Shown: positions 57,167 to 64,000 of the stretch, piece by piece
How the letters are laid out: every line of letters begins with the position of its first letter
How positions within the stretch are numbered: position 1 is the stretch's first letter
DNA from: Thalassotalea nanhaiensis
GTDB taxonomy: Bacteria; Pseudomonadota; Gammaproteobacteria; Enterobacterales; Alteromonadaceae
DNA length: 64,000 bases
Assembly (NCBI RefSeq): GCF_031583575.1
Contig: NZ_CP134146.1
Location: forward strand, 4,030,001-4,094,000
Direction of reading: 5' to 3'
Position numbers and translations under genes: made by a program
Notes under the pieces: generated by a model
The model's database searches: none
Told to the model about the DNA's origin: nothing
What the model saw: the letters and a program-made list of their open reading frames with translations, nothing else

Positions 57167-60040
57167 ATGATATCCATTAAACAGCTAACATCTTGGCTAT
57201 TACTGGCCAGTGCAAGCTTTACCGCAACAAGCACCGAAGTAATGAAGCCTACCCCTTTAGCACAGGCAGAGTATCCAAACATATTAACGGGCACTTACAA
57301 CAGTGCAATAACGTCCCCTGAAAAATTTTTAGGGTTTGAAGTTGGTCAAAAAACCGCAACGCCAGAGCAAATTAATACCTTGGTAAATATTTGGGCTAAA
57401 GAAAGTGAACGCGCCAGTATTATTGAATATGCAAGAACCTATGAAGGTCGTCCGCTGCATTACTTAATTATTTCCAGTAAAGAGCATGTTGCCAATATTG
57501 ATACCATTAAAAGCAACATAGACAAACTCAGCACACCTGATGACTTGTCCAACAAACAAGTAAAAGCCTTAATAAAAGAGACTCCGGCTACAGCATGGAT
57601 GGCGTACTCTATTCATGGAAATGAATCTTCTGGCGCTGACTCTTCTTTGGCGCTTATTTATCATTTAATCGCCAGTGAAGATGAGAACGTTAACGCTCTT
57701 TTAAATAATGTTGTAGTGCTAGTCGATCCAATGATGAACCCAGATGGAAGAGCTAGATTTACCAAACAATTGCAACAAAATCGCAGCGCTAGCGCAAATT
57801 TTGATACCCAATCGCTATTACACTCTGGTGTTTGGCCATTTGGTCGAACCAACCATTATCACTTTGATTTGAACCGTGATTTTTATTATGCGGTGAACCC
57901 AGAATCGCGCGGTCGTATTAAAGCTATCAACCAATGGTATCCATTGCTGATGATTGATGGGCATGAAATGGGCGCTTTGGATACGTTCTTGTTTGGCCCA
58001 CCGCGTGAGCCTATTAATGAACATATTGCTCCAAGTATTAATCAATGGAGTAAAGTATTTGCCAGTGAACAAGCCGCTGCTTTTGACAAGAAGTCTTGGC
58101 CTTATTATACCGGCGAATGGTTTGAAAATTTATATCCGGGATATTCAAATTATTCAGAATATAAAGGCTCTATTCATATTTTGTATGAACAAGCGCGTAC
58201 AGCTGAAGACGGTGTAAGGCTTGAAAATGGTCAAATACGCAGTTATAAAAAATCGGTTCATCACCAATTTTATAGTTCGATGACAAACTTAACTACATTA
58301 AGCAATCATCGCGAAAAAATCTTTACCGACTTTGTTAAAAACAGAAAAAACCATGTGGCTAAATCAAGTATTTATGCAAATAAAAGCTTTGTTGTTTTAC
58401 CAACAAAAAATCAGTCTCGACTCAATAAATTTCTAGATCTTATGGATTTGCAGGGTATCGAATACTACACCAACAAGACTGAACTAAAGGTACGTAATGC
58501 GACAAACCAACTTGGTCAAAAGTTAAATTCTACTACCATACCTGCTGCCTCAATCATTATCCCTAATCGTCAATATGATGCACCTTTAATTGCAGCAATT
58601 CTAGAATTTGATGCAAAAATTAAAGAGCAGGTCATATTAGAAGAGAGACAGAAAACCCTGCGTGACGGTAGCTCGGTAATGTATGATGCTACTGCTTGGA
58701 ACTTAACGATGCTATACGGTTTAGATGCACTAGAAGTTGACCAACACCTGCAAAGTGGTTTATCTAAATTGGCACGCGAAGAGACCTCATCTACTATCGC
58801 TTTAGAAAATACTATCGCTTATATTGTTGATGGCGCTAATGATGCTTCTGTTGGTTACGCTGCGCGTTTATTAGAACAAGGTGTACAAGTAAGGGCATTA
58901 GACCGTAAAGGCTTATTTAACGAGGTGGAATTCAGTCGCGGTTCTATTGTTGTGACTGTGCATGATAATAAAAATTCAACGCAGCTATTAAGCATAATTG
59001 AAACTACGGCTAAAGATACTGGCGTACAAGTACGGGCAATTAGCCAGGGCTTGGGCGAAGAAGACTTACCAGATATTGGCGGCGAACATTTTAAATTATT
59101 AAAACGTCCGCAAATCGCTATGCTTACCCAAACGGGCATTAGTCCTTATGATTATGGCCATATTTGGCACATGTTAGATACAGAATTAGGCGTACGTCAT
59201 TCTCATTTGAGCCAAGAATTGTTTAACTCTATGGATTTACGCTCTTATAACGTATTAATAATACCAGGTCGTTGGTATGGAGAGCTTAGTGCAGGCAATG
59301 TAAGTGCTATTGATACTTGGGTTAAAGCCGGTGGCACACTTATCGTAACTGGTAATTCAACAGTTCAACTGGCTAAAACTAAAGATTTTACCAGCACCAC
59401 ATTGTTAGCTGATTCATTCGAAAATATGCAAGATTATAATATTGCGCTTTATAAAGAGTGGCTTGCAAAACAAACCAGTGTATCTAATCAGGACGTTCTG
59501 GCGAATCACGTTGTGGCTGATTCCATCTGGTATCCATGGCAAAATCTTGACGAATTAAAGCCGATGAATAAAGAGCAATTAACCCGATGGGATGCGTGGA
59601 CGTCACAATTCATGCCTTCAGGAGCACTTGTCGGTACTCGCACAGATCAAAAGAGCTGGCTTACGTATGGCGTAAACGAGATATTACCGGTATTAATCGA
59701 TAACTCACCGCAATTAATGAGTAAGCGACCTGCCAGCGCCATTGTTCGCTACGGGGTATTGATCGATAACCCGAAAGCCAAAGAACGCTTAATCGGTTGG
59801 TCAACTATCCCTGAGGGCAAAGATTTATACCTACGCATGAGTGGGTTAGTTTGGCCAGAAGCGGCTCAGCGTATTAGTAATTCAGCGTACTTGACCCGCG
59901 ATAGAAAAGGCAATGGCCAAGTGATAATGTTTGCTAATTCGCCGAACTTTAGAGGGGCAACCAAAGGTACAGCAAGGTTGCTACTAAACGCGATAGTTTA
60001 CGGTCCAGGGCTTGGCAGTAATCAAGCGATAAACTTGTAA
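57167..60040 (+). CDS. Large secreted M14 family zinc carboxypeptidase
   Basis: A 957-residue exported metallopeptidase. After an N-terminal signal-like segment (QLTSWLLLASASFTATS), the M14 domain spans about 50-400. The zinc ligands are H150 and E153 in YSIHGNESSG and H266 in MIDGHEMGAL. The substrate Arg motif is HFDLNRDF (about 232-239), and a likely catalytic Glu is in HILYEQARTAEDG. The C-terminal half includes a glutamine-amidotransferase-like region (about 640-760; YNVLIIPGRWYG and GGTLIVTGNST). This architecture is common in marine gammaproteobacteria and probably degrades peptides in the periplasm or outside. Confidence 0.88.
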   Translation: MISIKQLTSWLLLASASFTATSTEVMKPTPLAQAEYPNILTGTYNSAITSPEKFLGFEVGQKTATPEQINTLVNIWAKESERASIIEYARTYEGRPLHYLIISSKEHVANIDTIKSNIDKLSTPDDLSNKQVKALIKETPATAWMAYSIHGNESSGADSSLALIYHLIASEDENVNALLNNVVVLVDPMMNPDGRARFTKQLQQNRSASANFDTQSLLHSGVWPFGRTNHYHFDLNRDFYYAVNPESRGRIKAINQWYPLLMIDGHEMGALDTFLFGPPREPINEHIAPSINQWSKVFASEQAAAFDKKSWPYYTGEWFENLYPGYSNYSEYKGSIHILYEQARTAEDGVRLENGQIRSYKKSVHHQFYSSMTNLTTLSNHREKIFTDFVKNRKNHVAKSSIYANKSFVVLPTKNQSRLNKFLDLMDLQGIEYYTNKTELKVRNATNQLGQKLNSTTIPAASIIIPNRQYDAPLIAAILEFDAKIKEQVILEERQKTLRDGSSVMYDATAWNLTMLYGLDALEVDQHLQSGLSKLAREETSSTIALENTIAYIVDGANDASVGYAARLLEQGVQVRALDRKGLFNEVEFSRGSIVVTVHDNKNSTQLLSIIETTAKDTGVQVRAISQGLGEEDLPDIGGEHFKLLKRPQIAMLTQTGISPYDYGHIWHMLDTELGVRHSHLSQELFNSMDLRSYNVLIIPGRWYGELSAGNVSAIDTWVKAGGTLIVTGNSTVQLAKTKDFTSTTLLADSFENMQDYNIALYKEWLAKQTSVSNQDVLANHVVADSIWYPWQNLDELKPMNKEQLTRWDAWTSQFMPSGALVGTRTDQKSWLTYGVNEILPVLIDNSPQLMSKRPASAIVRYGVLIDNPKAKERLIGWSTIPEGKDLYLRMSGLVWPEAAQRISNSAYLTRDRKGNGQVIMFANSPNFRGATKGTARLLLNAIVYGPGLGSNQAINL

Positions 60041-60108: not shown

Positions 60109-61059
60109 TTATATCGCTGCCGCCGATGAAAAGTTGAACACTTGGCAATTCATCTGCTTGGCCTCATTGACAAGTGTTTGGCTTAGCATTGAATTAACAT
60201 TGTTAAGATAACAGACTCGCTTGCCTTGCTTTAATAGCGTCAGAGCTTTATTCATATTTTCTTCATTTAACACTGTTTTTGGCGCATCTCGTCGGCATAA
60301 ATCTATTATTACGCTACCAACATCCAAATCATGCACAATATTATCTGCTTTTTGCATATTTCTTACTGCACCTAAGGTTAACAAGTCGGGGTGCAGTGGC
60401 GTATCAACAATCAATAGTTCAGCCTGGCTCATAGCAACATCCTCGCTATCGGCCAGTTGTGTATTAAACGTGTGCTCGAGATTTTCCCCCTGCTCGATAC
60501 CTGTGCCACTGAAAAATGTTTCCCAAAATAACCGGCGGTTGGCAAAATTAGTAAAGTGATCTTTGACCGATTGACGCTTTTCTCCGGCAAAAGATGCCAG
60601 TTTACCAAGTGATTGTGGAATGATGGTTTCTAGTTTTTCTCGCCAATAACGCAATAATACCGGCGACTGACCAGAGCTGGTCATGGCAAAAACCATAGGA
60701 GTACGATCGATAATTGCCGGTGTAATAAAGTGACACAAGTCAGCATTGTCGACCACATTGGCCAACACACCATTATCCAATGCATCTTTACTTATTTGTT
60801 CATTTAAGACGCGGTTTTCCGTTGCCACAAATACCAGTTGTTTATTGGCTAATTGTGACTTTTCATAATAACCATCGATGTAATTAATTTTATCTGCATC
60901 AATCAGTGCTTGTACGTTTGCTGACACTTTGGGTGACACCACCGTTACGCTTGTCGGACTTTTTATCAGTAACTCAATTTTAGCACTGGCAATATCACCG
61001 CCGCCCACAACTAACACATTCGTCTTTTTCGCATCCAGGAAAATAGGAAAGTAATTCAT
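60109..61059 (-). CDS. Precorrin-2 dehydrogenase/ferrochelatase (CysG N-terminal type) with degenerate SUMT tail
   Basis: A 316-residue protein. Residues 1-215 match the CysG N-terminal half that oxidises precorrin-2 to sirohydrochlorin and inserts iron. VLVVGGGDIASAKIELL is the NAD loop, NVVDNADLCHFITPAIIDRT the active-site region, and TSSGQSPVLLRYWREKLE the Ser-containing motif. Residues about 217-316 align with the start of the CysG SUMT domain (LLTLGAVRNMQKAD, then LCRRDAPK and KQGKRVCYL). The SAM loop GAGPGD is replaced by DTPLHP and the rest is missing, so methylation must come from the neighbouring SUMT. It makes siroheme, the heme d1 precursor. Confidence 0.87.
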   Translation of the reverse strand: MNYFPIFLDAKKTNVLVVGGGDIASAKIELLIKSPTSVTVVSPKVSANVQALIDADKINYIDGYYEKSQLANKQLVFVATENRVLNEQISKDALDNGVLANVVDNADLCHFITPAIIDRTPMVFAMTSSGQSPVLLRYWREKLETIIPQSLGKLASFAGEKRQSVKDHFTNFANRRLFWETFFSGTGIEQGENLEHTFNTQLADSEDVAMSQAELLIVDTPLHPDLLTLGAVRNMQKADNIVHDLDVGSVIIDLCRRDAPKTVLNEENMNKALTLLKQGKRVCYLNNVNSMLSQTLVNEAKQMNCQVFNFSSAAAI

Positions 61060-62673: not shown

Positions 62674-63525
62674 CTATCCAACGGATAACTCAGGGATTTG
62701 GCTAAACGGTTGCGCTGCATTTTCCGCTTGAAAATATCCCACTCCGGCAACGTGTTTAGGATCAAGTTGCTCAACGACATTGCCAACAACGATAAGCGCA
62801 GGTGGCTTAATATCATTATCAATAACCATTTTCTCAAGCGAGCCTAATGTGCCTCTGAACACTTGTTGATCAACTCTGGTGCCTTGTCTGATTATTGCAG
62901 CAGGTGTACTGCCAACACGGCCATGCTCGATCAGTTTTTCTGAAATCATTTTCACCGCGCTTATGCCCATATAAAACACCACAGTTTGGTTGTCATTATT
63001 CAAGCTTTGCCAAGGTAATACTAACTGACCATCATTTTGCAAATGTCCGGTAACAAAAGTACAACATTGAGAAACTCCGCGATGTGTTAACGGGATCCCA
63101 GCATATGTTGTCGCTGCGGAAGCGGCGGTAATACCTGATAACACATGGCAATTCACGCCGTGTTTAAGCAAGTGCTCAGCTTCTTCACTGCCGCGACCAA
63201 AAATAAACGGATCGCCACCCTTTAAACGTAAAACACGTTTATTTTGCAATGCATAATCCACCAAAACTCGATTAATGTCCCCTTGCGGTACGCAATGTTT
63301 TGCCTGTTTTTTTCCTACGTAAAAACGTTCACAATCAGCAGGTAATAGGTCCATAATGTCATCGCTAACCAAGCGGTCATAAACAACAACTTCAGCTTGC
63401 GCGATAAAGCGTACCGCTTTCACTGTCAGTAATTCTGGGTCGCCAGGACCGGCACCAACTAACGCTACTTCGCCTTTAGCAAAGTTAGTTCGTTTAGCTA
63501 TTTTATTAATAAGGAAATCAGCCAT
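62674..63525 (-). CDS. nirE: Uroporphyrinogen-III C-methyltransferase (SUMT)
   Basis: A 283-residue SUMT that methylates uroporphyrinogen III at C2 and C7 to precorrin-2 using SAM. VALVGAGPGDPELLTVKA (about 21-38), VVYDRLVSDDIMDLLP, VGKKQAKHCVPQ, RVLRLKGGDPFIFGRG (about 97-112) and AGIPLTHRGVS are complete. In this cluster it plays the NirE role, feeding heme d1; cobA is an equivalent name. It lies 18 bp after nirJ and 9 bp before nirN. Confidence 0.92.
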   Translation of the reverse strand: MADFLINKIAKRTNFAKGEVALVGAGPGDPELLTVKAVRFIAQAEVVVYDRLVSDDIMDLLPADCERFYVGKKQAKHCVPQGDINRVLVDYALQNKRVLRLKGGDPFIFGRGSEEAEHLLKHGVNCHVLSGITAASAATTYAGIPLTHRGVSQCCTFVTGHLQNDGQLVLPWQSLNNDNQTVVFYMGISAVKMISEKLIEHGRVGSTPAAIIRQGTRVDQQVFRGTLGSLEKMVIDNDIKPPALIVVGNVVEQLDPKHVAGVGYFQAENAAQPFSQIPELSVG

Positions 63526-63543: not shown

Positions 63544-64000
63544 TTAAATGTTGGTAACCGTAATTGCTTCACTTGCAACAGAAGTTAAACCAATTTCTTG
63601 ATCGGTTAAGTAGCAGCCAGGATCTTCTGCCCATACATCACCAGACTGTGCAAAAGCTCTGGTACGAGTGTTGCCCCCACAAATATTTAAATATTCACAT
63701 TTTGCGCAACGACCTTTAACTGGTCGCGGACTTTGTCTAAAACCAAGCATTAATGGGTCTTGAGTGTTTTTCCAAACATCTGAAAACTTTTCAGTTTTAA
63801 CGTTACCAATAGGATGATTCCACCAATAGGTATCAGGATGAATAACACCGGTATTATCAATGTTTGCAACATTTACACCGCTGGCATTTCCGCCCCAATT
63901 GATTAATCGTTGTTCTAAATTGGCAACACGTTGTGGGTATTTATTTCCGAATTTCTTCATCGCCCATTGTAATAAAAACGGACCGTCTGCATCGTTATTA
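63544..64000 (-). CDS. nirJ: Heme d1 biosynthesis radical SAM protein NirJ (C-terminal part)
   Basis: The gene runs off the right edge; about 152 C-terminal residues are seen, reading DADGPFLLQWAMKKFGNKYP onward. WGGNASGVNVANIDNTG, then NHPIGNVKTEKFSDVWKN and the cysteine cluster GRCAKCEYLNICGGNTRTRA with DPGCYLTDQEIG match the SPASM-like auxiliary Fe-S region of NirJ. NirJ removes propionate side chains during conversion of siroheme-derived intermediates to heme d1. The N-terminal radical SAM domain lies outside the window. An internal ATG at 63958-63960 is not the start. Confidence 0.88.
   Translation of the reverse strand, partial: NNDADGPFLLQWAMKKFGNKYPQRVANLEQRLINWGGNASGVNVANIDNTGVIHPDTYWWNHPIGNVKTEKFSDVWKNTQDPLMLGFRQSPRPVKGRCAKCEYLNICGGNTRTRAFAQSGDVWAEDPGCYLTDQEIGLTSVASEAITVTNI

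Follow-up and report, generated by a model that had tools for sequence, protein, structure and literature searches.

The trifunctional enzyme CysG of Salmonella and Escherichia coli (457 residues; PDB entries 1pjq and 6p5x) carries a precorrin-2 dehydrogenase/sirohydrochlorin ferrochelatase, CysG-B, and a methyltransferase (SUMT) on one polypeptide. According to a study of Salmonella CysG (PMC7018833), the dehydrogenase/chelatase active site is closed at its back by three residues of the SUMT module: R260, which touches the ring C acetate, and R261 and D262, which line the site. In the mutants described there (PMC7018833), R260A reduces dehydrogenase activity to zero and chelatase activity about 100-fold, R261A lowers the two activities about 40-fold and 20-fold, and D262A and D262N both reduce activity. 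Pennington et al. proposed this contribution of SUMT residues to the CysG-B site as a possible evolutionary benefit of the CysG fusion (PMC7018833).

Not every enzyme of this step is built that way. Met8p of yeast (also a chelatase) and SirC of Bacillus are dehydrogenases without an attached active SUMT, and free SUMTs of the NirE/CobA type exist as separate proteins. We analysed a 64,000-nucleotide stretch of Thalassotalea nanhaiensis DNA (the window), which encodes a 316-residue protein that resembles each of these systems in part (Table 1). Like CysG, it has a CysG-B part with all the ligand residues listed below and an N-terminal SUMT subdomain with the residues RRD at the same place; unlike CysG, it lacks the SUMT C-terminal subdomain, the S-adenosylmethionine (SAM) loop and the GGDPF motif. 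Like Met8p and SirC, it is a predicted dehydrogenase without an attached active SUMT; unlike it, Met8p lacks R260, R261 and D262 (PMC7018833). With free SUMTs (NirE, 2ybo) it shares the fold of its tail, hereafter the stub, which differs from them in lacking the SAM motif, the catalytic motifs and the second subdomain, and in having the pair RR, absent from the 32 free SUMTs compared.

Table 1. Coordinates of features in the window and in related loci
Feature	Position	Strand	Remarks
Stub-bearing CysG, 316 aa	60109-61059	-	CysG-B plus SUMT stub, from open reading frame, profiles and PDB alignment
CysG-B part, residues 1-191	60487-61059	-	Rossmann domain plus dimerisation/helical region
SUMT stub, residues 212-316	60112-60426	-	N-terminal alpha/beta subdomain, without SAM and catalytic motifs
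Lost SAM loop, residues 219-224	60388-60405	-	DTPLHP at the GAGPGD position
Lost KGGD at the GGDPF motif, residues 286-289	60193-60204	-	here NNVN
RRDA, residues 256-259	60283-60294	-	equivalent to CysG R260-R261-D262-A263
NirN-like protein, 529 aa	61075-62664	-	has cytochrome c and cytochrome d1 domains; named by domain content and location
Separate full-length SUMT, 283 aa, nirE position	62674-63525	-	from profiles; without RR at the RRD position
nirJ, C-terminal part	63544-63999	-	gene leaves the window; 396 aa in locus L055
SUMTs with decayed CysG-B, family f37	L307:1114-2316, L310:1111-2310, L306:1483-2784, L308:1108-2304, L309:1450-2769		each mirrors the stub CysG of its own genome

A CysG with a shortened methyltransferase domain

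The N-terminal part of the 316-residue protein is easily recognised, with profile matches to NAD_binding_7 (residues 6-115, E 2.1e-26), CysG_dimeriser (residues 150-190, E 7.2e-13) and TIGR01470, the CysG N-terminal domain, whose cut-off of 62.3 bits is exceeded at 198.6 bits. The CysG equivalog model PRK10637 (NF007922) extends further, matching residues 3-266 to its positions 1-271 of 450, and scores 246.8 bits, below the cut-off of 400 for the full-length trifunctional enzyme. Alignment with 1pjq is likewise a single stretch, residues 1-264 against 1-268, and it places R256-R257-D258 on R260-R261-D262. An earlier note on this DNA had described a SUMT remnant of about 100 residues behind CysG-B, at 60109-60411. 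The remnant is indeed there, about 105 residues long and recognised by PRK10637, 1pjq, BLASTP and the fold of a structural model; its location stands, and its limits move slightly outward because similarity begins near residue 212. The methyltransferase profiles match it weakly, all below their curated Pfam and NCBIfam cut-offs: TP_methylase (PF00590) finds residues 221-295 of the whole protein at 20.6 bits and the tail alone at 23.3 bits (E 7e-5) against a cut-off of 27.8, and TIGR01469 (SUMT) finds the tail at 25.2 bits (E 1.2e-5) against 185. SUMT similarity is thus present in profile searches, and the tail matches no other domain. Both comparisons proposed in the note, with full-length CysG (1pjq) and with the neighbouring SUMT, give a match, the latter with 28% identity over 109 columns by BLASTP (E 5e-6).

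What has gone is most of the methyltransferase. The GAGPGD loop, which the note had reported missing, is replaced and GGDPF is lost too; the remainder of the catalytic domain is deleted as it had said, with the SUMT C-terminal subdomain absent from a model that spans the N-terminal subdomain only. What remains complete is the active-site set of CysG, including D104, P133 and the RRD from the SUMT module: the CysG-B ligand residues K27, N101, D104, S128, P133, R137, R140, R162, K166, R175 and W179 are all present, their roles being taken from work on CysG (PMC7018833). The protein is therefore a predicted precorrin-2 dehydrogenase/sirohydrochlorin ferrochelatase, both activities being read from its residues only, and it is presumably an active enzyme, in which RRD would be placed and would work as in Salmonella CysG.

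A recent frameshift or nonsense truncation of the window gene was considered and rejected. The frame is open throughout, without interruption; a SUMT search across the organism's genome gave three SUMTs but no hit beyond the stub's downstream end, where only 68 bases separate the stop codon from a convergent gene ending at 60040.

Predicted structure of the stub

An AlphaFold model of the monomer (mean pLDDT 88.3, pTM 0.66) shows residues 214-310 as a complete small alpha/beta domain of five strands. Residues 211-313 superpose on SUMT 1ve2 residues 1-115 (Z 14.5, rmsd 2.1 A, 100 residues). They also superpose on NirE 2ybo residues 16-132 (Z 14.0, rmsd 2.2 A, 102 residues). By this modelled fold the stub corresponds to the N-terminal SUMT subdomain, and the C-terminal one is missing. 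The structural model of the tail, which the note had suggested, so speaks for SUMT ancestry and against a different domain. Matches of the model to Met8p and SirC cover residues 1-210 and 3-205, and neither reaches the stub. The arrangement of the two domains was discarded as a source of evidence: the whole model matches CysG residues 1-330 with Z 21.0 yet an rmsd of 16.3 A, and matches to CysG chains over both domains have rmsd values of 16-18 A, so that the model leaves the place of RRD relative to the active site unfixed.

A tail that keeps the full five-stranded fold, and with it a possible interface, might serve mainly in folding or dimerisation, with RRD conserved only through packing at the domain interface. 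We regard this as unlikely: CysG-B proteins without any tail exist, two of them in family f3 at 192 and 230 aa, and the three fully invariant columns of the stub are charged residues whose CysG counterparts touch the substrate or lie around it.

Conservation of the RRD residues

In the first sets collected, R256, R257 and D258 are each present in all 55 stubs, and in 32, 32 and 31 of 32 full-length CysGs. Among the 80 named loci (the best of 573) the corresponding counts are 22 of 22 stubs for each residue, and 58, 57 and 56 of 58 full-length forms. Pooling without duplicates gave 72 stubs, 89 full-length CysGs and 32 free SUMTs, and in the 72 stubs RRD is the sole fully invariant stretch; the SUMT catalytic residues are gone. 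Six columns of the SUMT domain are at least 95% conserved in full-length CysGs and less than 50% in free SUMTs. Five of these lie inside the stub (Q236, R256, R257, D258 and A259) and are kept in 99-100% of the 72 stubs; the sixth, a phenylalanine, lies outside it. By comparison, of 22 stub-region columns conserved in both full-length CysGs and free SUMTs (one of them an alignment-end artefact), only L227 is at 95% in stubs, with G213 at 93%. The contrast between the two classes of column gives a Fisher p of about 1e-4, columns and sequences being non-independent and their relatedness uncorrected. The two arginines occur together in none of the 32 free SUMTs. Among 47 SUMTs that give no CysG-B hit, two have the pair, and both of these carry a decayed CysG-B remnant.

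An enlarged set of 87 stubs has RRD in 83, RRE in two, RKD in one and RQD in one. (Nine rows are not in this count: three run open at a contig end, four lack their 5' end, and two, L254 and L256, have no tail.) Full-length CysGs do not all have the motif; 16 of 133 have neither RRD nor RRE or RKD. Ten of these 16 keep arginine at the R260 position, which fits R260A being the most severe of the mutations, and nine have D104 intact. Such forms show that there are other ways for the site to function or to disappear. Among the divergent full-length CysGs that lack RRD are L231, L234, L236, L239, L241, L232, L250 and L253, some of which keep only the R260 equivalent. Co-variation of RRD with D104 was examined and set aside: in raw counts D104 is found in 201 of 203 proteins with RRD vs 9 of 17 without, a difference that is not significant after allowing for relatedness, there being three independent pairs on starred branches and six on all branches.

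Selection on the stub is purifying. Its median dN/dS is 0.126 vs 0.075 for CysG-B, and none of the 53 pairs reaches 1; the pairs come mostly from one group, with 39 of the 40 pairs listed belonging to family f2. These values bear on the idea that the stub is a functionless leftover on its way to loss. Family f37 offers that idea some comfort, as its stubs have lost the SAM loop in graded steps (GTGPGDP, GTGNGDP, GCGDGDP, GVGHGDP, VADGDP, EASEAP), and so does the pair containing the window's own protein (P0001/L148), in which the stub evolves faster than CysG-B (dN 0.39 vs 0.11, stub dS saturated). Purifying selection, the presence of R256 (the R260 equivalent) in 87 of 87 stubs from many families, and the occurrence of two stub copies in one genome all argue the other way, and we give the leftover hypothesis very little credence.

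Distribution and repeated truncation

The stub is no peculiarity of the window gene; many gammaproteobacteria have it. Across the order, 142 of 197 genomes have a match, and among the matches listed there are 55 short forms in 54 genomes, every one of which aligns through the stub. Named loci (the best 80 of 573) comprise 22 stubs, from Thalassotalea, Colwellia, Thalassomonas, Psychrobium, Moritella, Photobacterium and less precisely named gammaproteobacteria, and 58 full-length forms, including Alteromonas, Paraglaciecola, Nitrosomonas and Aquitalea. A second search of 35 genomes with weak hits, together with a search of two families, added ten stubs in f37, four in f74 and one in f20. Since the order and class counts are made among the matches listed, the spread is a lower bound. 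Of eleven f37 matches with open frames below 430 aa, ten are stubs. The eleventh, L319 in genome G633, has a 417-aa open frame with SAM loop, GGDPF and PGIT intact that stops soon after; it is perhaps a recent and different shortening of a full-length form, and it is not counted among the stubs. L320, which reads N beyond CysG-B, was left out.

Nearly all CysGs of the class, among the matches listed, are full length, so the stubs read as truncations; a tree by itself cannot give the direction of change. With the profiles, the PDB alignments and the tree, this bears out the earlier note's view of an ancestral CysG whose methyltransferase half decayed. The dimerisation and precorrin-2 hand-over that it had suggested as reasons for keeping the stub fared less well, no evidence being found for either.

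Truncation appears to have happened more than once. A CysG-B tree of 87 rows has three stub label changes, two of them forced by starred branches, and a quick tree of 110 rows has six, at least three on starred branches. A single origin of all 55 stubs was tried and rejected, the AU test disfavouring one clade at p 0.014 with L046 included; without L046, one clade for the remaining 54 stubs is not rejected (p 0.24), so a single event may lie behind the two largest stub clades, of 45 and 9 rows. Several bacterial lineages thus seem to have shortened CysG in the same way. The chain ends 49-77 residues after R256 in 86 of 87 stubs, close to the PGIT position of full-length forms, which lies 68-69 residues after the R260 position in 133 of 133. 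Repetition of the same shortening suggests that what is left over is a working part and not junk. The shortest stub, L237:1438-2289 (283 aa), ends 28 residues after R256, reads RQD and has N at D104; it may be degenerate, or a dehydrogenase-only enzyme.

A SUMT, free or in a fusion, is encoded elsewhere in all 54 stub genomes of the order and in all 14 further stub genomes of f37, f74 and f20. The best SUMT of genome G023 is a SUMT-HemD fusion. (At L130:1326-2717, a SUMT is fused to a HemD-like domain in a 463-aa protein whose genome also has a stub CysG.) Having the SUMT on another polypeptide invites the suggestion that the stub is its docking site, used to channel precorrin-2, the more so as the partner lies two genes away in the window and is the next-door gene in a Psychrobium MAG (L150). 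We hold this to be quite improbable, as the conserved residues are already accounted for by the active site and the SUMT and stub genes stand far apart in some genomes, such as G005 and G021.

Complementary decay in duplicated CysGs

Family f37 contains both halves of the story. Nine of its ten stubs have RRD and one has RKD. Alongside the stub, two of these ten genomes still encode a full-length CysG that reads RRDA. In five, the best SUMT bears a decayed CysG-B remnant, covering roughly positions 1-100 of the 205-position CysG N-terminal model (Table 1); in the remaining three, no CysG-B remnant was found on the SUMT, in one by profile and in two by reading short N-termini. Six of the eight SUMT partners lack an intact RRD (two of the six keep the first R), and the other two, about 400 aa long and with the remnant, still read RRDA. 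Some f37 stub genomes have a second, more distant SUMT, and the four examined all lack RR. Some duplicated f37 CysGs, that is, decay in mirror image.

Other families vary the pattern. In f74, RRD is missing from the full-length CysGs L288, L290 and L292, which carry T at D104, and the stubs of the same genomes have D104 with RRD or RRE; a fourth genome, G365, is stub-less, and its only full-length form lacks RRD and has T at D104. In two genomes of f11 (L128 and L129, with L043 and L044), a full-length CysG with G at D104 and RRD intact stands beside a stub. By and large, RRD follows the dehydrogenase half and not the methyltransferase half that encodes it.

Genomic context: a heme d1 (nir) cluster

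The separate SUMT is, as the note had said, two genes upstream of the stub CysG, with a NirN-like gene in between. The part of nirJ that lies in the window scores 234.6 bits against TIGR04051 (cut-off 515). Locus L055 extends the minus-strand order: a cytochrome c plus d1 protein, a NapC/NirT-type cytochrome, a cupredoxin, a small cytochrome c, a d1-domain protein, four NirD/L siroheme-decarboxylase HTH proteins, nirJ, the SUMT, the NirN-like protein and the stub CysG. We take the first of these to be nirS, by position and domain; by domain and order, the d1-domain protein is presumably NirF-like, the cytochrome c plus d1 protein beside the stub CysG NirN-like, and the SUMT NirE. The stub CysG sits with nirS, nirF, nirD/L/G/H-type genes, nirJ, nirE and nirN, and so belongs to a nir cluster. 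The NapC/NirT-type cytochrome of this cluster, at L055:12943-14736, is a 597-aa protein that also carries an ethylbenzene dehydrogenase-type domain. Read from the sequences, the order of the four decarboxylase-type genes, nirJ, the SUMT, the NirN-like gene and the stub CysG is the same in Thalassotalea sp. ND16A (73% identity).

The genome encodes a second stub CysG (L056:7751-8680, 309 aa, 42% identical), perhaps the housekeeping copy; the adjoining gene, recognised by eye, we take to be prmA-like. One of the two further SUMTs in the genome adjoins open reading frames of 115 and 855 aa, which by length and position only we assume to be nirD and nirB. Siroheme is the precursor of heme d1 (PMC4063343), and a dedicated siroheme-forming enzyme in a nir cluster therefore makes sense. 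The window protein would accordingly have its role in heme d1 supply.

Probable role of the stub

Very probably, the stub has been retained as a wall, itself non-catalytic, of the dehydrogenase/ferrochelatase active site, in this case in an enzyme of a heme d1 cluster. Our own observations are the homology, the disappearance of SUMT residues, the conservation of RRD, the recurrent truncation and the gene order; the role of R260, R261 and D262 in Salmonella CysG was established by others, and the mechanism draws on those published mutants of a homologue and on the conservation pattern. A full-length CysG would have become a bifunctional precorrin-2 dehydrogenase/sirohydrochlorin ferrochelatase as its SUMT half lost SAM binding, catalysis and the whole C-terminal subdomain, a separate SUMT doing that job. 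The N-terminal SUMT subdomain would owe its survival to the R256-R257-D258 loop, which would wall off the dehydrogenase/chelatase site at the back, R256 binding a tetrapyrrole carboxylate and R257 and D258 setting charge and geometry. Precorrin-2 from NirE would then be converted by the 316-residue protein to siroheme, to be used for heme d1. Several observations count against this reading: the f3 CysG-B proteins that have no tail, Met8p with none of the three residues, the full-length CysGs lacking RRD, the two f37 SUMT partners that retain RRDA, and the short, RQD-bearing stub L237. More generally, we think it probable that several lineages independently turned the methyltransferase domain into a non-catalytic wall, that duplicates decay in mirror image, and that RRD is functionally inherited by the dehydrogenase half.

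A search of titles and abstract openings found no description of a truncated SUMT stub; subscription journals lay mostly outside it, and a prior description may exist. For annotation, the tail is probably a working part; proteins with a stub should not be named methyltransferases, and a separate SUMT should be looked for in their genomes. The window protein is a real and informative CysG variant, its methyltransferase cut to the subdomain which, by homology, would complete a neighbouring active site. Repeated natural truncation that keeps the RRD piece gives independent comparative support to the idea of Pennington et al. (PMC7018833), and allows the proposed benefit of fusion to be tested directly in a small protein that itself lacks SUMT activity. 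If true, this would be a natural experiment that answers what the CysG fusion is good for.
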